64,000 nt of DNA, from NCBI GenBank assembly GCA_019426215.1, contig CM033399.1, positions 24,499,022 through 24,563,021 of the forward strand, given 5' to 3'. Source of the DNA: Buddleja alternifolia. Taxonomy: Eukaryota > Streptophyta > Magnoliopsida > Lamiales > Scrophulariaceae. Below, in pieces: positions 5,898-64,000 of the stretch; position 1 is the first letter of the stretch, and the number at the start of each line of letters is the position of its first letter. The translations under genes were made by a program, and so were the position numbers. A model generated the notes under the pieces. The model searched no databases. It worked only from the letters and a program-made list of their open reading frames with translations, and was not told the DNA's origin.

Positions 5898-7222
5898 TGA
5901 TGCACAAAAATCCAGTCGTGTATTTAACAACAAGTGGACTGATCGTCTATAGTAATAAAGTGGACAATTAAGTTGGGGATGTCAAATCCACAGATACTTG
6001 TATTTTAGTTTTATGAGAAATTAAAGCGAGCAAGAACTTAAAGAAACTAAAGATTTTAATATTTAAAAGCAATAACATAAACTAAAAGCAAGAATTAACT
6101 AAAAGATTGTGGAAGCAAGATAAAAGAAACAAGATGTCGAAATCAAGATAGCTATGGAAGAGAGCAACTTAGGCACATGTATTGGCATAAATTAATCAAT
6201 TCTTGTTAAAATCACGTTTTCATTTTATTAGCCTAATGTTGCTAAGGTGGAAAATTCCTTAAGATTATTATCAGTTCGATCCCTTTGTGTTGATAACCTA
6301 TGCTAGATTAGATGAACAATCTCTCTTGCATACATTAAGGTTTGAATTTTTTCCGGATAAAATCGGCTAACAGCATCTAGAGTATGTAGCCATTCCTAGC
6401 ATCAACTAACTCAGAAGATGTTATTCAACCTTTTTGCACCTTAAATGACTTTTTCCCAAACAGATAATTTAAGCATAGATTCATACATATGGTAGCTAAT
6501 TATATGAAGCATTAAGAACAAGATTAAAACACAAAGCAACAAAAGAATTAATATGAAAAATACAATTTATAACTCAAATCTCATAGTTTAGCCTAAACAT
6601 GGCCTTAGTTTGAAGAATCTAATTCATCAAGAAAGATAAAAGATATAAACTTTGATAAAGATTCATAATCATAGACAAAAATAAATAAGAAACTCCCTCG
6701 TATAATTGATTGTTCAACTTCGATCTTCATCTCTTCCATGCTTCTTGATTTCTTCACCTTCAAGGGTTTCTGTGATCTTCATGAATATCTAAAAACTAAG
6801 TCTAAACCCTATTAGGGCTCTATTTTATGTGTATTTTGTCCTTCTCACCCTAAAGAACTGATCTAATATATGTAAGGGTGGAAGGGAAGCATTCCAACTT
6901 GAATTAGAATTGAAAAACGCATAAAATCTGCTATTTTTCCCGTCATCCTTATGTACGAACGTCATTTGCCCACGTACGAACGCTGGAGACAGTAACATTT
7001 TGCCTTCTGAGCAGTGATCTTGTTTCCTTCATAACTTTTCATAACTTTCCTTCATAACATTTTGCCTTCTGCATTTTCGTCCAATTGTCCTCAATTGCAA
7101 TAATTTTCCACTTTTACTCAATAAGCACACAAATTACAAGCATATGTGGCATAAATCATGCATAAACCAATGTAAATCACATGAATATGAGGCTCTAAAA
7201 TACGTAAATTCATAACCTATCA
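5898..7222 (-). repeat. Element 1, 3' LTR
   Basis: About 1325 bp, bounded tgatgcac...cctatca on plus. Matches 10575-12327 except for the hAT-like insertion there and a deletion near 7045. It holds the uninterrupted target site acacaaag at 6529-6536, and a pair of tacgaacg motifs 21 bp apart (6954 and 6975). Confidence 0.8.
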
Positions 7223-8899: not shown

Positions 8900-10440
8900 A
8901 AGAAGCGCTCCTTTAAAGTCACCAGCTTGACTTTATATTAGAGATTGGCTTAAGGTGGTTTGCGTATGAATGCCTTGTTCATTCTCCAATTCACTCTCGG
9001 GTATCGCTTCAACCTTTAGCCATTGGTAGTGAAGATTGGCCCATCATTGGTGCTACATGCCCTAGGTTTGGACCATACTATCATCCACTTGCGAGTTTTT
9101 GTATGTTCCCTCAACACCTAGATTACTCTTTCTTCCCCATGCGTCGGGTGATGTTGTGGACTTTCTTCCAAGCTAGAGACAATATCTCATTTTTCTTCAC
9201 CCATCACTTTGACATATGCAGAGTCCACGATGTAGGAATATAGAAGATTTTTGGATTAATTTTTCCTCATCGGCTTTGAGTACCGATTTACTTGGGGTTG
9301 GGGGAGAAGGTGAGTGAATATCAACGGGCTCAGAAAGAATAGGAGTCGGATGCTCAGTGGTCGTCGGTTCTGTCGTGGAAGTCCGAACGTCAGCTTCTGC
9401 ACATTCGAACGTGATGTGCATGAAAAACTCAGTTCTCGACACTTTTTCAGACGTTAGAACGTCAGGCACTGCACGTTCAAGCGTGCTAGGCGGTGAAATT
9501 TTTTCCGGATTTTTCAACTCTTTCTCTTTCCCTATAATGGAAAAGCATTGTACAGTAGGACTTTTCTCTATGTTACCTGGCAATGCCCTCGGTGCTTCCT
9601 CAGACGAGTCGGTTGATAATTGGCTTTTATGGTGGTGCCCTTCTTTATCCCCATATCCATCTCTTTCAACACCTCGCAAAGCTCATTGATAAACTCCTTT
9701 TGCTTACGGAATTCTTCTTAAATCATTCTAAGACTTTTGAGTTTTTTAGGAGGGAGGTCCTCATCATCCTCAGGATATAGCTCATCCTCTTTAGCCAGCT
9801 GCCCTAGCTTTCTCCATGCAGTTTGAGCATTCAATCCCAAGAGTTCACCATCGGCTCCCTCATTGAGTCGATGTCTAATCCTCGATCGAACTCCATCATA
9901 AAAATATTACACAAGATTGCTAGAAGAATAATTGTATATTGGGCATTTTCTCATCATACCCATATACCTAGCCCATACATCCGCTAACGATTTCCCTTTT
10001 TTCTACTTGAATCGTGATCTCGCTTTGTAGTTCGTCAATCTTTGATTGAGGAAAGAATTTATCCAAAAAATTCCCAATAAACTCTCCCTAAGTTGTGATG
10101 GATTGTGTGGGAAGAGACTTATACCATGCGAGAACTTTGTCCTCGAGGGAGAAATGGAAAAGTCAAAGGTAAACAACATCAAAATCTCTGAGAGGGATTT
10201 TGTATTGTAGACAAAATATGGTAGAACTCTTCCAAGTGATCATATAGTGATTCGCTTGGATCCCCATAAAATGGTCTGTTCTGAACTATGATGATTAGGT
10301 CAGTTGGAATACGTAAATTTGGTGTATGTAAGGGTGGTAAGACAACTGGTCCTAGATAAGTAGCACTTGAGGTGGTTGACTACCACGAATTGATTGAATA
10401 GCTGCTGGTTACATAACTTGTAAGAGATTTTGTAACCATG
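8900..10440 (-). pseudogene. Decayed Athila-like gag (element 1)
   Basis: On minus, pieces match the gag at 38971-41513. The block near 9880-10010 encodes a match to WARYxxMxRKCP and FYDGVRSRIRHRLN, the block near 9770-9860 matches QLAxEDELYPxDDE, and 9540-9560 matches the PTAQC-type segment before the linker. Stops and frameshifts separate the pieces. An open stretch of 160 codons survives at 9197-9679 and covers the linker, which carries two pairs of NCGAACG-like motifs (9382/9404 and 9454/9476). The protease domain present in element 2 is missing. Confidence 0.7.
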
Positions 10441-10574: not shown

Positions 10575-12327
10575 TGATACACGGAAACCCAGTCGTGTAT
10601 TTAACAGCAAGTGGACTGATCGTGTGTAGTAATAAAGTGAACAATTAAGTCAAGGATGTTGAACCCACAGAGACTTGTATTTTAGTTTTATGAGAAATTA
10701 ATGCAAGCAAGAAGTTAAAGAAACTAAGGATTTTAAGATTTTAAAAGCAATAAAATAAACTAAAAGAAAGAATTAACTAAAAGAGTATGGAAGCAAGATA
10801 AAAGAAACACGATGTCGAAATCAAGATAGCTATGGAAGAGAGCAACTAAGACACATGTATTGGCATAAATTAATCAATTCTTGTTAAAATCACGTTTTCA
10901 TATTAATAGACTAATGTTGCTAAGGTGGAAAATTCCTTAAGATTATTATCAATTCGATCCCTCTGTGTTGATAACCTATGCTAGATTGGGTGTAGCTATC
11001 TCTCTTGCATGCAATAAGGTCTGAGTTTTCCCCGGATAAATCAGGCTAACAGCATCCGGAGTATTTATACATCCCTAGCATCAACTAACTTAGAAGATGT
11101 TGTTAATCCTTTTGCACCTTAAATTACTTTCTCCCAAACAGATAATTTAAGCATAAATTCATACATATGGTAGCTAATCATATGAAGCTTTAAGAACAAG
11201 ATTAACACACAAAGTTAGGGCAGAAAGATGAACCAAACTACTCAATACTCGACTCGAGCTCGATCATTATAAGCTCATTTGAGCTCGATTCGTCAACATA
11301 TCAAACCAAGCTTGAACAATTTTTTGTATTTGATGAGTTTTGAAGGTCGGCTCGAGCTCGACTCGATTAGTAAAAATTGATAAAAACGTGTATAAAAAAG
11401 TCAAACTACTGGAGCTTGACTCGTGTTCAGTTCGATTAAAACTTATTTGAGCTCGGCTCGATTAATAATCAAACAAGTTTAAACACAAATTTTGAAACTC
11501 GAGCAATTCAAACAAGCTTGAACAACAACTCATTCGGCTTGACTCGACTCATTTACACCCCTACACAAAGCAACAAAATAATTAATATGAAAAATACAAT
11601 TTATAACTCAAATCTCATAGTTCAGTCTAAACATGACCATAGTTCGAAGAATCTAATTCATCAAGAAAGATAAAAGATAGAAACTTCGATAAAGATTCAT
11701 AATCACAGACAAAAATAAATAAGAAACTCCCTCGTATAACTGATTGTTGAAATTTGATCTTCATTCCTTCCATGCTTCTTGATTTCTTCACCTTCGAGGG
11801 TTTGTGTAGATTTTCATGAATATATAAAAACTAACTTTAAACCCTATTAGGGCCCTATTTTATGTGTATTTCGTCCTTTCATCCTAAAGAACTGATCTAA
11901 TATATATAAGAGTGGAAGGCTTGAATTAGAATTGAAAAATGCGTAAAATCTACTATTTTTCTAGTTAAACTCATGTCCGAACGTCATTTACCCACGTACG
12001 AACGCTGGAGATAGTAACATTTTGCCTTCTGAGCAGTGATCTTGTTTCCTTCATAACTTTATCCACAGACCTCCAATTGGGGTAATTCAAGTTATCTCAT
12101 GAAGAAAAGACAGAGTTATACAACTTTGTAGAAGGAACTTTCCTCAAATTCTATTTCTAAAGACTTTGAAATTCTGCATTTTCGTCTAGTTATCCTCAAT
12201 TACAATGATTTTCCACCATTACTCAATAAACACACAAATTACAAGCATATGTGGCATAAATGATACATATATCAATGTAAATCACATGAACATAAGGCTT
12301 TAAAACACATAAATTCATAACCTCTCA
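10575..12327 (-). repeat. Element 1, 5' LTR
   Basis: About 1753 bp, or 1397 bp without the hAT-like insertion and one duplicated site at 11215-11570. Bounded tgatacac...cctctca on plus. Substitutions against the partner LTR are frequent, so the insertion is much older than element 2. It carries NCGAACG motifs at 11976 and 11997, 21 bp apart. Confidence 0.8.
11215..11562. mobile_element. Non-autonomous hAT-like element (348 bp)
   Basis: Flanked by perfect 8-bp duplications acacaaag (11207-11214 and 11563-11570), the hAT length. The ends are short imperfect inverted repeats: ttagggcagaaa on the left, and aggggtgtaaat when the right end is read inward. The interior repeats gagctcgactcg-like words (GAGCTCG, CTCGACTCG). 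The sister LTR at 6529-6536 has a single acacaaag, giving a direct empty-site comparison. No coding capacity. Confidence 0.8.
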
Positions 12328-28607: not shown

Positions 28608-29335
28608 TGATAGGGATGAGATTTACGTGATTTGGTACTACGATTTCGTATGGTTTAAGCTCAATTATGTTTAATTTATGCCACAAATGCATGTAATAAG
28701 TTTGAAATTGGAGTACAGGTATAAGTTCTTGAAATTGAGGAAAATAATGAAGAAAGGCACGAATTCAGTGTAAAACCAAGGAAGCAGAGCCTAACGTTTG
28801 AACGTTGAGTGCATTAACATCCGAACGCTTGGAGAGCTTACGCACGAATGTGAAATGCAGTAACGCCCGAATGCCAGGAGATGCCCAACGTTCGAACGTT
28901 GATGTCGGCAGAACAATTTTAGAAATTTCCAATTCTAAACTAAAAGGATTCTTCCAATACTACACCTATAAATACAAGAGGTAGGAGCAGAAAAAGAGCA
29001 GCAGTTTAGTAGGTAGAGAAACCCGTTAATTAGGGTTTAGTTTAGTTTTCTTCTTGGTTACTTTTGGATCAAGATTTCATAGAAGAAGGCAGAAAAAAAT
29101 CATCTTCTACAAATAGGGAGTTTTTAGATTTAGATAAAAAAATTCTATACATATTTATCTAATTCGTTGTATATTTTCTTTTATAGTTATGAATTAATTT
29201 ATGAGATTAAGACCATGCAAAGGCAAGATTGATTTTGAATAATAAATGATAGTTGCTGATTTAAGTTAATTCAATGACTGTTATGTGTTATGATTTTTGT
29301 GCTATTATCATCTTCATATGATTAGCTACTGGTAG
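28608..29335 (+). repeat. Athila-type LTR fragment
   Basis: Starts TGATAGGGATGAGATTTACG, like TGATAAGAGGCATTTTTACG at 37069. The following blocks (tatgccacaaatgcat, ggagtacaggtataa) parallel the element 2 LTR, and later blocks (aagaccatgcaaagg, tttttgtgctattatc) also correspond. It carries five NCGAACG-type motifs (28797-28898). Its 3' half is missing where a family X LTR begins at 29336. Confidence 0.65.
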
Positions 29336-37068: not shown

Positions 37069-38812
37069 TGATAAGAGGCATTTTTACGTGTTTTTAAGCC
37101 CATGGGACTTATGCTATGGATTCATTTATTGACAAAATCATGCCACATTTGCGTTTAAGCGGGGTGTTAAGTGATTACAGGTGATAAATTTGAGCATACG
37201 AAGAAACGAGGCGAAAAACGACGTATAAAACAAGTTCAGGCCAATTTGCTTCTGTCGTCCACGCCCAGGCGCCAGTATTACCACGCCCAGGCGCCGGACA
37301 AGATGCAAATAACGTCAACATTCTGCAGTCCACGCCTAGGCGCCGTACTGTCCACGCCTGGGCGCCGTATCTGCATTAGTTTCCACGGTTGAGCGCTATT
37401 TCCGTATGTTTAGAGACCGAATTGGATGAAGTTCCCTTCTACAATGTTGTAGAAATATGTGTTAGCTTCAAATGAGGACTTGAATCATCTAAATCGGAGT
37501 TTCGTGGAGAGAGTAATGAATGAAATACGATTGCTGCGCATGACACATTGCATTTAATTTCAGCATTCTGTCAGCGGCGCCCGAGCGCCGTCATGCCCGT
37601 GCCTAGGCGTGACCACACCCGAGTTTTGATTCCTTTTAGCTAAAAGTTCATCATTTGATGGTGGAATGGAACATTTAAAGCCAAGAGGTCATCACATGTG
37701 TTGAGGGGATGTCATAAGTGTGTTTCTTGGTAGATCTACTTTATGGAATTTTATACTACACACTTTAGAGTAGTGGAGGACACACTAGGGAGACACACAC
37801 TAGGGAGCCCATCATTTCTTGTCTTCTTAATGCCATTTTCTTCACTCTTGACCGAACACACCTGGGAGGAGGAGGCAGCTGGCCATTACTCTGCACCCAT
37901 CATCATTCATCACCATTCTTCATCATTTGGAAGATTACAAAGAAGGAGGATTGAGCTAGAGATTGAAGCTACAAGCAAGGATTCATCATCATTCAAGACT
38001 TAGGGAGTTTCTTTTGCATTTCATTTACATGTTTATGTTAATAACTATGTATATGATTGTTTTAGACCTTCTTGAGCTATTGAATATGAGCTAATCTTGT
38101 AGAACTAAGGCCATGTGAAGGCCGAATTCATGAATCTATATATGTGAAGTTAATTTTCGTATTAATTCTTCTAATTGCTTTGTGTGTTGATTTTGTGCTT
38201 TTATCACAATCATATGCTGGATCTCCATATGCTTGCTATTGTGCCTAATCTAGTCATTCGAGAGAAGATAGGTTAGGGTTCAAATGAATCAACACATCAT
38301 CCGAAACTAATGTGGAATTGCTCCTAGAAATAGGTAAAGATTTCCAGGTGCGGTTAGCCGGATTTATCCGGGGAAACTCTAGAACGTTAATGCGTGGTTG
38401 TTGATTAGATTCTCGGATAGACATATTTAGAGAACCGTCAATCAATCATAGGATTGTTATGTGCCGAGACATCGGGTAATGATTAATTAAGGAGTTTTCA
38501 CCAAAGCAATAGGAGTCTAATAATTCGAAGAGTAGCTCATATATATAGACGAGTGGATTTGGTCATAGCATGTGCCTTAGTCTTTTTAACCAATTCGTGA
38601 GGTTTAATTCATAGCTTGTTCCCTCCTTTGATCTTTCATTTACTTAATTGTTTTTCTCTTGCTTTACTTTAATTGTCTTTACCTTCATTACGAATCTTAA
38701 ACTAAAATTCAAGTCTCCGTGGTTCGACAACCCGGACTTATTTTGTCCACTTTTATTACTACACACGACTAGTGCACTTGCTATTAAAAGCACGTTAGGT
38801 AATAGCGTGTCA
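37069..38812 (+). repeat. Element 2, 5' LTR
   Basis: 1744 bp, TGATAAGAGGC...GCGTGTCA. It has a TATAAAA box at 37224-37230 and, starting about 30 bases later, a cluster of CpG-rich near-palindromes: ccacgcccaggcgcc-type at 37259, 37281, 37330 and 37352, then a pair centred at 37582 and 37604. Confidence 0.92.
37224..37230 (+). promoter_or_regulatory. TATA box in element 2 5' LTR
   Basis: TATAAAA in a locally GC-richer context. A start site about 30 bases downstream would place the CpG motif cluster (37259 on) at the very 5' end of the transcript. The same box is in the 3' LTR at about 43322. Confidence 0.5.
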
Positions 38813-38818
38813 AGTTTT

Positions 38819-38836
38819 TGGCGCCGTTGCCGGGGA
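38819..38836 (+). promoter_or_regulatory. Primer-binding site of element 2 (tRNA-Asp)
   Basis: TGGCGCCGTTGCCGGGGA, an exact complement of a plant tRNA-Asp 3' end, six bases after the LTR. Typical of Athila-type elements. Confidence 0.93.
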
Positions 38837-38970
38837 CTTGTTTATTTTAGTTTTTGATTTTCGTTTACATTTTTCATAATTCTTAGTTTTCGTTTATTTC
38901 TTGATTCTCTTTTATTTTCGTGTTTAGTCTAATTTTGTTCTTGTATTTAATTGTTAGGTTCTTGAGGTGC

Positions 38971-41513
38971 ATGACCCGCTCCTCAAACGAGCCTCTATAC
39001 GAGTTGGAGCCCGAAATTGAACGAGTTCTTCGGACTAGTAGGCGAGCAAGAGAAATGGCCAATAATCTCAACCAAAACCCGAATGGAAATTTCCCAGACA
39101 TGAACTCACCGGAAACTAGGGAGTGGTTACAAGGTGTTCTACAAGCCATGCAAGCGGTACCTCCTCCACAACTCCCGTCGGTTCGGGGTAGCTTACCACC
39201 TAGGGTCCATACTATTCCGGGGCCCGTGGTCGTGCCTAACTTCTTTGCACCAAACTACCACATTCCGGCTCACATTTTTAATATGGTGCAAGGAGAACCT
39301 TTCTATGGAGAACCGGACGAATCACCTCACGCTCATTTAGAGACTATAGACGATGCTCTTGTGACCATTCAATATCACCCACGGGATCTTGATGCAATTC
39401 GTCTAAGAGTTTTCCATTTCTCATTGAAGGATAGGGCGACAACATGGTACAAATCCTTACCTCCACAATCTATTACAACATGGGTGAGTTGGTCGATGCC
39501 TTTTTAAATAAATTCTTTCCACCCTCCAAAATCAATGAGCTCCGGAGTAATATAAAAGGGTTTAGGCAAAGGAGCAATGAGTCTTTAGCCGAGACTTGGG
39601 CTAGATATAAGAGCATGCTCCGTAAATGTCCCGATCATAATTTTGGGTTGAATGAACAAGTACTCCATTTCTATGATGGGGTTAGGTCACGTATTCGGCA
39701 TAGACTCAACGCGGGTGCGGGATGAGATCTCCTTGGGTTAGACTGTCAAAGTGTATGGGACAAAGTCGAACAGTTGGCCCGAGAAGACGAGCTTTACCCC
39801 GACGATGAAGAGGCCTCATCCTCTAAAAAGGTTGCTTGTATTGAGGAAGTAGTTGAGGGAGTAGTAGCCTTGGAACCGGAGGTTGGCAACGTCAATTATG
39901 TGGGGAATCACAATCAACCTCGGGTGAACTTTCATGTACCCGAGAATTTTCCAAAAAGGCCCAACCCCGCACAAAACGCACAACCGGGGATCTATCAAGC
40001 TCCACGGCCACCTTTCAATAATCCACCCCCGAGGCAAGGCAATTTCAATGGACAAGGTCAAGGTCAAGTGCAAATGCGACCTCCCACAATCGATGAGAAA
40101 CTAGATGCTCACATGAAAAAGTCCGATACATCTTTCAACGAACTTCGGGGTATGATAAAGGATATGTGTATGGAGATGAAGGATTTGCGAACACAAGTGG
40201 GGCAACTGTCTAATGCGGTTAACGGTAGAGCCCCGGGGACTCTCCCAAGTGACACGGAAAAGAACCCGACGGCCCAATGCAATGCCATAGCCTTGAGAAG
40301 TGGCAAACAATTGGCGGGTGACACTGCCAGTACATCCGCGCCCGAGCGCCCCTCTGACGGCGCCCAGGCGCCACCCACAACCCTGCCAGATGCATCTGTT
40401 CTGAATCCCGCACCCGAGCGCCCCGACATGCACGCCCAGGCGCCTACAGATCCGCGCCTAAGCGCCAATATACGCGCCCAGGCGCCGACTCCTGTTTTAG
40501 TCGGTTTTCATCCTTCCAATCCAACGCATTCTCCCCCTATCGAAGTTCGTCTCCCCTTCCCAAATGCTCACAAAAAGAAGCAAAAGGAGATGAATCCGAG
40601 CTTTCTTCGAATTTTGGCAATCCTTCGGGAGGTGAGGATTAATATTCCGTTTATTGACGCCATTCTCCAAATGCCGAATTATGTGAAGTACTTCAAAGAC
40701 ATACTATCTAACAAACAGAAGTGGGAGGAAAAGGAGACGGTGTGTCTCACTGAGGAATGTTCTGCCGCCTTGCTCAATAAATTGCCAACTAAACTCAAAG
40801 ATCCCGGGAGTCTCGCAATACCGTGCACTATTGGCCATCTCAAGTTCGACAAAGTTCTTTGTGATTCGGGAGCGAGTATCAACCTTCTTCCCTACTCTAT
40901 TTTTAAGAAGCTAGGCCTTGGAGATCCTACGCCCACATCCATGTCCATACAATTGGCGGATTGCTCTATCAAGAAACCAAAGGGCATTATCGAGGATGTC
41001 ATTGTACAAGTTGAGAAGTTCTTCTATCCGGTTGACTTCGTGGTTCTCGACATGGATAGTGACATTGACGTGCCCTTGATTCTAGGAAGACCATTCCTAG
41101 CCACTAGCAACGCTAAGATCGACGTGGGAAAGGGTAAGTTAACATTGAAGATGGGTGATGAAAAGGTGATATTCGGTGTTTATCATGACATGCAACCGCC
41201 TATGGATGATCTTACTTGTTCATATGTCAATGCTATTAATCCGTTGCTTGATGAGAAATGTGAAAGTGGCAAGTCTAAGAGCCCACTAGAGTTGGAGGAT
41301 GAGGTTCCCAAGGATAAACAAGACAAAGTGGGAAAAGAAGATTTATGTATGAAATACATTCCACCCCATCGCCGTGTTCATGAGATCGACAAAACTCATC
41401 CGAGAAAAAGGGTTTGTTGCAAAACCCCGCAATATTGGTGGAAGCAAGTAAACCATGAGGCTAAAAGGAGGCATAACAAGGATTTGGTCGTGTTAAATGG
41501 ACCACCTATTTGA
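38971..41513 (+). pseudogene. Athila-like gag-protease, one frameshift and one stop
   Basis: Translation probably starts at ATG 38971 (MTRSSNEPLYELEPEIERVL). The gag core (FHFSLKDRATTWYKSLPP, FPPSKINELRSNIKGFRQ, CPDHNFGLNEQVLHFYDG) is broken by an apparent one-base deletion near 39484 and by TGA at 39723-39725. From 39726 the frame is open to 41513: a charged and Pro-rich segment, then ALRSGKQLA, a linker with PERPxxxAQAP repeats (about 40330-40490), and a retropepsin with its active site CDSGASINLLP and ILGRPFL. The frame stops after the protease, where reverse transcriptase would begin in a full element. In a working element gag builds the particle and the protease matures it. Six CpG motifs lie in the linker DNA. 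Confidence 0.85.
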
Positions 41514-43166: not shown

Positions 43167-44888
43167 TGATAAAAGGCATTTTTACGTGTTTTTAAGCCAA
43201 TGGGACTTATGCTATGGATTCATTTATTGACAAAATCATGCCACATTTGCGTTTAAGCGGGGTGTTAAGTGATTACAGGTGATAAATTTGAGCATACGAA
43301 GAAACGAGGCGAAAAACGACGTATAAAACAAGTTCAGGCCAATTTGCTTCTGTCTTCCACGCCCAGGCGCCAGTATTACCACGCCCAGGCGCCGGACAAG
43401 ATGCAAATAACGTCAACATTCTGCTGTCCACGCCTTGGCGCCGTATCTGCATTAGTTTCCACGGTTGAGCGCTATTTCCGTATGTTTATAGACCGAATTG
43501 GATGAAGTTCCCTTCTACAATGTTGTAGAAATATGTGTTAGCTTCAAATGAGGACTTGAATCATCCAAATCGGAGTTTCGTGGAGAGAGTTATGAATGAA
43601 ATACGATTGCTGCGCAGGACACATTGCATTTAATTTCAGCATTCTGTCAGCGGCGCCCGAGCGCCGTCATGCCCGCGCCTAGGCGTGACCACACCCGAGT
43701 TTTGATTCCTTTTAGCTAAAAGTTCATCATTTGATGGTGGAATGGAACATTTAAAGCCAAGAGGTCATCACATGTGTTGAGGGGATGTCATAAGTGTGTT
43801 TCTTGGTAGATCTACTTTATGGAATTTTATACTACACACTTAAGAGTAGTGGAGGACACACTAGGGAGACACACACTAGGGAGCCCATCATTTCTTGTCT
43901 TCTTAATGCCATTTTCTTCACTCTTGACCGAACACACCTGGGAGGAGGAGGCAGCTGGCCATTACTCTTCACCCATCATCATTCATCACCATTCTTCATC
44001 ATTTGGAAGATTGCAAAGAAGGGGGATTGAGCTAGAGATTGAAGCTACAAGCAAGGATTCATCATCATTCAAGACTTAGGGAGTTTCTTTTGCATTTCAT
44101 TTACATGTTTATGTTAATAACTATGTATATGATTGTTTTAGACCTTCTTGAGCTATTGAATATGAGCTAATCTTGTAGAACTAAGGCCATGTGAAGGCCG
44201 AATTCATGAATCTATATATGTGAAGTTAATTTTCGTATTAATTCTTCTAATTGCTTTGTGTGTTGATTTTGTGCTTTTATCACAATCATATGCTTGATCT
44301 CCATATGCTTGCTATTGTGCCTAATCTAGTCATTCGAGAGAAGATAGGTTAGGGTTCAAATGAATTAACACATCATCCGAAACTAATGTGGAATTGCTCC
44401 TAGAAATAGGTAAAGATTTCCGGGTGCGGTTAGCCGGATTTATCCGGGGAAACTCTAGAACGTTAATGCGTGGTTGTTGATTAGATTCTCGGATAGACAT
44501 ATTTAGAGAACCGTCAATCAATCATAGGATTGTTATGTGCCGAGACATCGGGTAATGATTAATTAAGGAGTTTTCACCAAAGCAATAGGAGTCTAATAAT
44601 TCGAAGAGTAGCTCATATATATAGACGAGTGGATTTGGTCATAGCATGTGCCTTAGTCTTTTTAACCAATTCGTGAGGTTTAATTCATAGCTTGTTCCCT
44701 CCTTTGATCTTTCATTTACTTAATTGTTTTTCTCTTGCTTTACTTTAATTGTCTTTACCTTCATTACGAATCTTAAACTAAAATTCAAGTCTCCGTGGTT
44801 CGACAACCCGGACTTATTTTGTCCACTTTTATTACTACACACGACTAGTGCACTTGCTATTAAAAGCACGTTAGGTATTAGCGTGTCA
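43167..44888 (+). repeat. Element 2, 3' LTR
   Basis: 1722 bp, TGATAAAAGGC...GCGTGTCA. It matches the 5' LTR but lacks one 22-bp CpG-motif unit (three copies at 43357, 43379 and 43428 instead of four). Small open frames here duplicate those in the 5' LTR and are not genes. Confidence 0.92.
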
Positions 44889-61737: not shown

Positions 61738-61739
61738 GC

Positions 61740-63471
61740 TGACACGCTAATACCTAACGTGCTTGAATAGCAAGTGTACTAGTCGTGGTAGTAATAAAAG
61801 TGGACAAAATAAGTCCGGGTTGTCGAACCACGGAGACTTGAATTTTAGCTTTAGATTTTTAATAAAAGAAAAGATAAATAAAGTAAATTGCAAGAATTGA
61901 TTGAATAAACGAAGGACAAAAGAGGAAATGAGCTATAGACTGAAACTCACGTATGATAAAATGACTAAGGCACATGCTATAACCAAATCTACTTGTCAAT
62001 ATATATGGGCTACTCCTCGAATTATTAGACTCCTATTGCTTTGGTGGAAACTCCTTAGTTAACTATTACCCGATGTCTCGGTTCATAATAATCCTATGAT
62101 TAATTGACGGTTCTCTAAATATGTCTATTCGAGAATCTAATCAATAACCACGCATTAACGTTCTAGAGTTTCCCCGGATAAATCCGGCTAACAGCACCCG
62201 AAAATCTTTACCCATCTCTAGGGGCAATTCCTCATTTGTTTCGGATGATGTGTTAATTCCCTTGAACCCTAACCTATCTTCTCTCGAATGACTAAATTAG
62301 GCAAGATAGCAAGTATATAGTGATCAAGCACATGATTGGAATAAAAGCATAGAATTAACACACAAAGCAATAGGAGAATTAATTGTGATATGCGAAACCT
62401 GCGCCAAACTCCCTGTGTTAATTTTTTTGCAAATCACTCCCTTGTGTTATTCTTTATTCTGCATATTTCCCCTTTTTTGGTTTTTTTTGGTGTTTTTTTC
62501 CATCATAAATGTCAATCCAAATGCATTTTTACCCCAAACATGTTTACAATAGTTAAATAATTTAATTTGGGTTAGATCTAGAACATTTATGATGGAAAAA
62601 ACACCAAAAAAAATCAAAAAAAGGGAAATATGCAGAATAAAAAATAACACAAAGGGGTGATTCGCAAAAAAATTAACACAGGGGAGTTTGGAGCAGGTTT
62701 CGCATATCACAGGGGGGTCTTATGCAATTTTCCCCTCCAAGATTGATGAATTTTTGGCTCAAAATCCCAGAAAAATGCCTTCCTTTCCCCGATTTTCGAA
62801 CCCCTTGTAATTGCTGAAATTTGGATTTTATAGTTTTCAAAAAACTGTTGCACCGGCGCCCAAGCGTGAGCAAATCGGCGCCCAGGCGTGGTCCAGGTGA
62901 TGTAATTGACTTGAGGAAGAAGTTGAAGGGTGCCCAGGCGTGGTTGGGGTGGCGCCGTAAGAGGGGCGCTCGGGCGCCACAGTGCGAACTCAACCGTTTT
63001 CTTACTTTTCAGCGCAGCAATCTTGTTTCCTTCATAAAGTTCTCCACAGACCTCCGATTTGAGTGATTAAAGTCATCCCATAAAGAAAAGACATAGAAAT
63101 ACAACTTTGTAGAAGGGAATGTTCCCAAATTCGGTCTCTAAACATACAAAAATGGTGCTCAAACGTGGAAGATATGGCAGATATCGCGCCCAGGCGTGGA
63201 AAAATAGCGCCTAGGCGTGATTATACGTAACTTCAGCCTGTTTCTTGCTTGTTCGGGCGCCCAGGCGCGATTATGGATGCGCTTGGGCGTGGAGGTGCGA
63301 ACATAAATTGTTTTATATGTCATTTTTCCGCCCTTTCTTCGTTTGCATCCATTTACAACCTGAAATCACTTCACACATGGATTAAACGCAAATGGGGCAA
63401 GAATCAAGCGATAAATGAACCTAAAACATAAACACAACGGTCTTGAAAACACATAAAAATGACTCTTATCA
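61740..63471 (-). repeat. Solo Athila-like LTR inserted in integrase (element 3)
   Basis: On minus it starts TGATAAGAGTCATTTTTATG (63471) and ends ACGTTAGGTATTAGCGTGTCA (61740), matching both ends and many blocks of the element 2 LTR. It splits the integrase codons between ...HYEYS and APQTPQQN. Flanks read caggt and cagct (with the latter overlapping the LTR's final CA), so the duplication is imperfect. No internal region remains, so it is a recombined solo LTR. It carries paired GCGCCYRGGCG motifs at 62855/62877, 63186/63207 and 63257/63279. Confidence 0.85.
62384..62735. mobile_element. Fold-back MITE inside the solo LTR
   Basis: The two halves are nearly perfect inverted copies of about 140 bases: tgtgatatgcgaaacctg at 62384 is mirrored by caggtttcgcatatcaca ending near 62712. 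The right arm extends a further 22 bases to gcaattttcccc (62735) that the left arm lacks, so the left end is trimmed. The terminal style (gggaaaattgca, then cctgtg words) resembles the MULE at 30601 (gggataattgca). Confidence 0.75.
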
Positions 63472-64000
63472 ACCTGAATACTCATAATGTATTCCATTCT
63501 CTGCACAAAACTTCTCAACAACCTTGTTAGTAACTCAGTACCATGATAGCTTCTTATTCTTGCAACCTTAAGATTTTTCAATGTTTGAAGTTGCCGAATA
63601 AGCGTTGTTAACTTGTCACATGTTTCATCTTTGGACGAAAGAAATTTCACCCAAGTAAATCGAGAGAAATCATCTACTATCACCAACGTATACTTTTTAC
63701 CGCTCACACTAATCATTTGAACAGGTCCAAACGGATCCATGTGAAGTAGTTCAAGTATTCTAGTGGTAGATAGATGAGGTTTTCTCTTGAAAGATGATTT
63801 AACTTGTTTGCCCATTTGACAAGCGTCACAAAGGCGATCCTTGTGAAATGGCCTTTTTGGTAATCCCTCTACAAGATTTAGCTTTAGAAGCTAAGAGATT
63901 GTCTTAAAGTTGAGGTGATTTATTTTTCTATGCCATAACCAACCCGTTTTAGATTCATTTTTAGCAACAAAACATGTTGGGTTGTTGTCAGTTGTTGAAC
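63472..64000 (-). pseudogene. Copia integrase core, 5' side, catalytic Asp lost
   Basis: On minus the frame runs from beyond the window through GKQVKSSFKRKPHLST, LLHMDPFGPV (first catalytic Asp) and YTLVIVDDFSRFTWVKFL to VARIRSYHGTE, where the family has Asp in RSDHG (second catalytic Asp replaced by Tyr), then FCAEN-like residues up to the LTR insertion at 63471. The region 63816-64000 continues toward the zinc-binding part with lesions. Confidence 0.8.

Follow-up and report, generated by a model that had tools for sequence, protein, structure and literature searches.

The 64-kb window of the Buddleja alternifolia genome (the whole stretch analysed, 64,000 nucleotides) contains 14-bp CpG palindromes about 22 bp apart, here called boxes, in LTRs and gag linkers. 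Element 2, on the plus strand, has a class A 5' LTR (37069..38812, 98% identity to 43167-44888) with boxes at 37260, 37282, 37331, and 37353 (37260..37366, spacing 22-49-22) and at 37576 and 37598 (37576..37611). The N-terminal part of its gag frame (38920..39507) matches Retrotrans_gag weakly, at 20.6 bits against a curated cut-off of 24.1, and is followed by a 579-amino acid frame for the gag linker and aspartyl protease (39774..41513). The linker carries a class A array (40337..40486) with boxes at 40337, 40359, 40409, 40431, 40453, and 40473, which fall in all three reading frames. The 3' LTR (43167..44888) has boxes at 43358, 43380, 43429, 43652, and 43674; it lacks one of the 22-bp units that the 5' LTR has. 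Element 1, on the minus strand, is of class B, with gag-linker boxes at 9378, 9400, 9450, and 9472 (9378..9485) and LTR boxes at 6950 and 6971 (3' LTR, 6950..6984) and at 11972 and 11993 (5' LTR, 11972..12006), each LTR pair having 8 and 9 of 10 core matches. Element 3 is a solo LTR of class A on the minus strand (61739..63473) with eight boxes, including 62855/62877, 63185/63206, and 63256/63278, and a TATA 36 bp past the last box start. Another LTR piece, on the plus strand, has a class B array of five boxes (28793/28816/28839/28862/28887; 28793..28900) spaced 23-25 bp, the middle three degenerate; CTATAAATA comes after the array, and TATA lies 80 bp past the last box start.

The motifs that a first-pass annotation had listed in elements 1-3 and the LTR piece are present, but the positions it gave as centres are actually close to the 14-mer starts. 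Its class B sites in the gag of element 1 also exist, but the boxes at 9450 and 9472 read GACGTTAGAACGTC and CACGTTCAAGCGTG and not the literal TNCGAACG. The gag and protease of the carriers in the window are of the Athila type, with Asp_protease_2 just over its cut-off (24.8 vs 24.3 bits) and Retrotrans_gag below; we take these carriers to be Athila-like Ty3/gypsy elements, a name that fits their gag and aspartyl protease content. Gag of the element 2 type has 3189 homologues among 7967 candidates scored and is related to plant retrotransposon gag proteins.

Three box classes occur in the B. alternifolia genome (853.6 Mb), with the cores CGCCYRGGCG (class A), CGTTYRAACG (class B), and CGCCGCGGCG (class C). 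LTR pieces with class A boxes have 3-8 boxes each scoring at least 9/10, with fewer in some class B and C LTRs. A scan of the window irrespective of class, accepting sites with CG at both inner positions and at least four of seven palindromic pairs, returned 44 sites, compared with a mean of 11.5 and a maximum of 22 in 30 first-order Markov simulations; nine pairs were 20-24 bp apart in the window and none in any of the 30 simulations. Over the whole genome, exact pairs gave 573 matches for class A (290+283, CA centre only), 562 places for class B, and 2147 places for class C, and reversed-pattern controls gave zero for each. Pair spacings are discrete in all three classes, chiefly 20-24 bp, in lists that cover the earliest places by genome order and not the whole set. 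Only 20, 21, 22, 27, 28, 40, 42, and 43 bp were seen in the first 100 class A places (13-43 bp allowed), and only 21-24 and 28-30 bp in the first 50 class C places. The first 50 class B places had a spacing of 22 bp in 37 cases (25 of 35 distinct spacers), the remainder being 21, 23, 24, 38, and 43 bp. The paired boxes are therefore confirmed as real and genome-wide, and the spacing peak near 22 bp predicted from the window is borne out.

Many arrays lie just upstream of a TATA. In class C, the last box start is 32-33 bp from TATA in 12 of 13 arrays. For five of the class C LTRs the distance comes from palindrome scans, because a looser box threshold picked up a partial match lying 12 bp into the last box and so gave 20-21 bp. 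Since the class C LTRs are related, the constancy partly reflects descent. Of 15 class A Athila LTR sequences, 5 have a distance of 33-36 bp, and in Copia arrays TATA is 84-182 bp away or none was found. No TATA[AT]A was found within 200 bp past the last box, or within the shorter stretch available in some cases, in element 2 and several other class A LTRs. In element 2, TATAAA instead precedes the first box by 36 bp, and in element 3 such a motif precedes the first box by 26 bp, so some arrays could sit downstream of a start site.

Arrays are present in both LTR and gag in 18 of 28 gag-bearing elements. The proposal that each element has its own motif class common to LTR and gag held in 17 of these 18, over three classes, the 18 elements representing only three or four independent lineages; the remaining element (C12_98) is ambiguous, and no clear mismatch was found among the 18. 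Isolated off-class box matches do occur and count against the promoter-factor reading given below. The class C family C4_v (1838-amino acid frame) has an LTR array and no gag array, which indicates that the gag array is dispensable. Where gag arrays are present, their slots are kept across classes, being 22-50-22-22-20 in class A and 22-47-22-22-23 in class B.

Alignment of 11 gag linkers gives a minority-base fraction of 0.065 for box cores and 0.292 for spacers, a contrast reached by none of 20,000 random block placements. By codon position the cores have values of 0.067/0.073/0.056, with no excess at the third position, compared with 0.058/0.050/0.177 in the flanking coding sequence. Since the cores are kept at every codon position as the spacers drift, selection acts on the nucleotides, and the gag boxes would be regulatory DNA maintained inside a coding frame via the nucleotide sequence. 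Tandem duplication, slippage, and gene conversion could instead have propagated boxes of little function and made the LTR and gag arrays of each element alike; the single 22-bp unit separating the element 2 LTRs and the variation in box number among copies are what such processes would leave. This origin is quite unlikely, however, because the spacers are diverse (35 distinct among the 50 class B places listed) and drift while the cores stay, the gag slots are retained between classes A and B, and the TATA distance is near-constant.

Class A arrays also fill the LTRs of Ty1/Copia elements unrelated to Athila. An iMet-type PBS is present in 12 of the 16 Copia class A loci among those listed, one carrier (L009) matches sequences named TNT 1-94, and the Copia class A LTRs have no homology to Athila reference LTRs outside the arrays. 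Class A boxes were not found in the elements' own coding region in L009-L012, L020, and L021. The asymmetric class A variant has opposite transcriptional orientations in the two groups: on the sense strand, positions 2 and 13 are G/T 21 times and A/C 3 times among 121 Copia sites, but A/C 56 times and G/T 5 times among 137 Athila sites. Intervals of 4.5 kb between some class C places had hinted that Copia elements use this class too, but eight sampled places did not bear this out; seven have Athila-type LTR homology past the array (L075 has it only within the array), and none of the eight has an iMet-type primer site.

These observations do not support the suggestion in the first-pass annotation that the boxes form a code for RNA packaging or dimerisation. 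Under such a code, hairpins or kissing loops in the genomic RNA would specify Gag binding, packaging, or dimerisation. The gag and U3 palindromes are both in the genomic RNA, their class matches within an element, and palindrome symmetry persists through class change, all of which such a code would explain. Nevertheless it is very unlikely: Copia elements with an unrelated Gag have class A arrays in the LTR and none in the coding region of the six named above, box orientation flips in Copia, and the arrays are coupled to TATA. The strand asymmetry in particular disfavours RNA hairpins, as pair 2/13 of the Athila boxes, when mismatched on the sense strand, is mostly A-C and seldom G-U; neither this nor the orientation flip is as expected of a packaging or dimerisation signal acting in sense RNA. 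It is even harder to credit that the palindromes flag the element to the host through hairpin-derived small RNAs, since such a liability is not expected to be conserved at the nucleotide level in gag or common to two superfamilies, although maize Sirevirus LTR palindromes are called small-RNA mapping hotspots in the relevant part of PMC5311732.

The boxes are probably double-stranded-DNA sites for a dimeric, sequence-specific factor acting on the LTR promoter. This reading is based on palindromic arrays, boxes often about two helical turns apart, a TATA that many LTRs have at a nearly fixed distance downstream, and a further array of matching class, conserved at the nucleotide level, in most gag linkers; spacings of 27-30 and 44-52 bp, which are not whole helical turns, count against a DNA-binding dimer. 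The dimer would bind the boxes and activate the LTR promoter, and the gag array may be an intragenic enhancer or an anchor for the same factor. The box class would switch once a lineage changes its factor or the specificity of that factor, and the LTR and gag arrays would then change together. Since class A is also found in unrelated Copia elements, the factor more likely comes from the host than from the element itself, and the occurrence of this class in both Ty3/gypsy and Copia shows the code to be independent of any single replication machinery. A more elaborate scheme is possible but doubtful: a genome with at least three box languages, in which each Athila lineage has the same class in U3 and gag because one factor reads both arrays together (by promoter-gene body looping or spreading), switches are concerted across slots, and Copia took up one language independently, read by the same factor.

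A chromatin or anti-silencing factor, also raised in the first-pass annotation, may act on the boxes, but CpG decay revealed no lasting protection. Its specific form, an element-encoded or hijacked protein that acts on the boxes to demethylate the element, as VANC does in VANDAL, with class following protein specificity, is unlikely. Spreading would fit with CpG-rich boxes in both the promoter and the gene body, and the VANC target arrays are similar in being family-specific short motifs in repeats that change together among relatives, with the motifs of one VANC in an unrelated TE (text searched of PMC5735166). However, VANDAL elements are DNA transposons, the VANC targets are in non-coding regions, palindromes are unmentioned in that same text, and the VANC6 motifs are unlike the boxes. 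Comparison of 5' with 3' LTRs shows equal CpG decay, at 21/201 in boxes and 33/305 outside (Fisher p=1.0; 15 elements, 14 of them Copia), so lasting protection from methylation is not seen.

If the boxes are sites for a dimeric promoter factor, then box class, preferred spacings, the near-fixed TATA distance of many LTRs, and the gag copy together offer a testable handle on plant LTR promoter recognition, and the three classes are natural swaps for finding the factor. Plant Copia LTR enhancer boxes such as Tnt1 BII are likewise repeated short U3 boxes upstream of TATA, although we know of no gag copy or class code for them. The yeast elements Ty1 and Ty2 also have transcriptional regulatory sites in gag coding sequence, but to our knowledge the motif class of these sites is not that of the LTR. 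No box array was found in the gag of other plants among the best 120 of the 3189 homologues, from 69 of which linkers were excised by pattern; single matches to the peptide pattern occurred in 8 of the 120. With the gag linker alone as a protein query, none of 344 candidates matched at E<=10, and viral contigs gave no match. Five exact motif strings had three matches in 5.39 million open papers, all unrelated by title and abstract, and a keyword search of titles and abstracts returned no report of box arrays in Athila, so any claim that these are not in print is limited to that extent; the portion of PMC11656987 available mentions neither Athila nor palindromes.

The closest precedent is the repeated-motif (RM) boxes of Sirevirus elements, as described in the sections of Bousios et al. 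2010 (PMC2829016) drawn on here, with 8-32 RM units per element and TATA on average 37 bp past the CpG island. As in Sirevirus, the palindromes are element-specific, CpG-containing, high-copy in the LTR, and repeated in one further internal cluster, and the boxes stay while their flanks diverge. Unlike the Sirevirus cluster, which is upstream of env, the internal cluster seen here is inside the gag coding sequence, and the cores are CGCC/GGCG, CGTT/AACG, or CGCCG/CGGCG instead of CGG-CCG. Sirevirus elements are Ty1/copia, whereas gag/protease type and match names place the carriers here with Athila-like Ty3/gypsy elements and Tnt1-94-like Copia elements; the boxes also differ from RM boxes in their spacing of about 22 bp and in having one class common to two superfamilies.

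The window (C10:24499022-24563021 of an 853.6-Mb genome) holds two gag-bearing, putatively Athila-like elements, of which gag and protease were tested, one solo LTR, and one LTR piece. The solo LTR, element 3 (window 61739-63473), apparently lies inside a Copia-type pol region. The paired CpG-rich near-palindromes listed in the first-pass annotation are present in the window, where a class-independent scan found 44 box sites against 11.5 expected (maximum 22 in 30 simulations) and 9 close box pairs against 0 across 30 simulations. Most boxes of element 2 fit the class A 14-mer [CG][AG]CGCCYRGGCG[CT][CG] and those of element 1 are close to the class B 14-mer GACGTTCGAACGTC; transitions at symmetric positions separate class A from class B, within a shared CG-N6-CG skeleton. 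The first LTR spacer (window 37272-37280) contains CAGTATTAC, which resembles the VANC21 motif, probably by coincidence.

Class agreement between LTR and gag, first seen within the two gag-bearing elements of the window, holds far more widely. The sample of 28 gag-bearing elements comprised elements 1 and 2, the loci L024 and L028/L029, and 24 further copies: 10 taken by gag similarity to element 2, 10 by class C gag similarity, and 4 being copies of a class B gag located via the box itself. For these 24 the upstream stretch was located by its distance from gag (some 2-3 kb), so assignment to the same element is positional. Gag arrays occur in 26 of the 28, and both LTR and gag arrays in 18 (A/A 11, B/B 3, class C 4), a count that overstates independence, as the 18 represent three classes and perhaps four lineages phylogenetically. 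Under a strict threshold of 9 or more of the 10 core positions, the two arrays agree in class in 17 of these 18. In the eighteenth, C12_98, five boxes make up a strong LTR array of class C, but the linker has two class C boxes at only 8/10 core positions and, as its sole strict match, an isolated class B box 93 bp from them. Two more class C cases are thin, C1_66 with one linker box and C3_80 with one LTR box. Class was assigned from the array and not from single matches, since single off-class matches occur in the LTR pieces of At2 (both), At25a, C17_89, C13_82, C4_auto, C12_98, and C4_v. The 10 uninformative elements have an array in gag only (C13_66, C4_87, C12_81, C15_81, C11_84, two class B copies, and C1_81, whose gag array is weak and accompanied by one isolated LTR match), in the LTR only (C4_v), or, by the box scan, in neither (C1_iv). 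The gag slots correspond between classes, with spacings of 22-50-22-22-20 in A and 22-47-22-22-23 in B.

A genome-wide search for exact box pairs with any 1-31 bp spacer returned 290 + 283 matches for class A (CA centre only), 562 places for class B, and 2147 for class C (ACGCCGCGGCGT), with 0 for the reversed-pattern control of each class; class C was found incidentally during this work. Strand counts for B and C are equal because both patterns are palindromic and mark the same places. The spacing figures come from the places listed, taken from the start of the genome order and in many cases copies of one family; among these the spacings are discrete in all three classes. The predicted peak near 22 bp was recovered: 22 bp accounts for 36 of 100 class A places (the others being 20 in 9, 21 in 3, 27 in 6, 28 in 4, 40 in 6, 42 in 33, and 43 in 3) and for 37 of 50 class B places (25 of 35 distinct spacers). 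Most 42-bp class A pairs have a third box within them, an arrangement also present in the gag linker of element 2. Class C spacings are 21-24 in 34 and 28-30 in 16 of 50 listed places. Among distinct neighbouring pairs in the fetched pieces, Athila peaks at 22 (60/138), with a second mode at 44-52 (39), and Copia at 21-22 (74/113).

Several families were encountered besides these. At G000:C1:20722807-20741247, four class C gag copies follow one another at intervals of about 5.86 kb and class C pairs recur with the same period, which looks like a head-to-tail retrotransposon tandem array. A class C family seen at L064/L065 and in the 67% group has frames up to 1838 aa and at least 30 copies of nearly equal score, and looks recently amplified; in the single copy that was read, an array is present in the LTR and absent from gag. 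L079, L080, L081, and L087 form one related LTR-like family of unassigned type with class B arrays, and L080 has CTATAAATA downstream of its array.

The LTRs of Copia elements are also filled with class A arrays. Protein matches with 60-70% identity to plant Copia proteins suggest that the host is a flowering plant; L009, L011, and L020 have long Copia frames, the matches of L009 including entries named TNT 1-94, and a primer site of iMet type is present in 12 of the 16 loci listed. Outside the arrays, comparison of their LTRs with the Athila reference LTRs showed no homology. Two short elements of Copia type whose LTRs have class A arrays, L013 (4703-5375) and L017 (4444-5101), contain an internal tandem array of about 43-bp units. 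An RNA code for packaging or dimerisation had been suggested initially, but the observations favour action as DNA. In L009-L012, L020, and L021, the region enclosed by the LTRs contained no class A box. The asymmetric class A variant appears as GGCGCCYRGGCGTG in the Copia sense and as its reverse complement in the Athila sense. Positions 2/13 are G/T in 21 and A/C in 3 of 121 Copia sites, but A/C in 56 and G/T in 5 of 137 Athila sites. In the sense strand of an RNA stem, G-U should be commoner than A-C, the reverse of what Athila shows.

The gag boxes of element 2 occupy all three reading frames. In an alignment of 11 linkers (element 2 and 10 copies similar by gag, the long insertions of 3 opened as gaps), the minority-base fraction averages 0.065 in box cores, where third positions show no excess, 0.292 in the spacers between them, and 0.095 in flanking coding sequence, which has the usual third-position excess (0.177). 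The contrast was matched by 0 of 20000 random block placements, and the true register ranked second among 150 circular shifts, the top shift being one base away. This pattern indicates that gag boxes are under nucleotide-level selection, and gene conversion among boxes could also contribute. The LTR pairs of element 2 and 14 Copia elements (15 in all) show no box constraint in post-insertion non-CpG differences (15/738 inside boxes versus 143/7406 outside), which is what selection on the transposing lineage would predict. In the same pairs, CpG to TpG/CpA differences number 21/201 inside and 33/305 outside, the latter including array spacers, which argues against lasting methylation protection of inserted copies; it does not argue against brief protection in active copies and says little about Athila.

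Distance to a TATA box varies with class. Twelve of 13 class C arrays, in LTRs that are mutually related, have a last box that begins 32-33 bp upstream of TATA; the thirteenth, L075, which may not be an Athila LTR, lacks a TATA at that distance. Of 15 class A Athila LTR sequences (element 2 counted twice), 5 place TATA 33-36 bp beyond the start of the last box; in the remainder, a search of the fetched stretch up to 200 bp downstream found either no TATA[AT]A or one at 162 bp. Where TATA was found, it is about 77-106 bp away in class B; in Copia the distance is 84-182 bp or no TATA was found. Two cases count against promoter coupling: in element 2 no TATA was found after the arrays and a TATAAA lies 36 bp before the first box, and element 3 has a TATA 26 bp before the first box and another after the last. 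In Sireviruses the box island is followed by TATA at an average distance of 37 bp (PMC2829016).

The most likely reading is that a putative class-specific DNA-binding dimer would act at the LTR promoter, with gag carrying a matched array, nucleotide-constrained yet dispensable. The nearest known kind is the repeated-motif box of Sireviruses; as far as literature searches reach, what is new here is the placement in gag, the spacing, the covariation across three classes, and the use of one class by two superfamilies.
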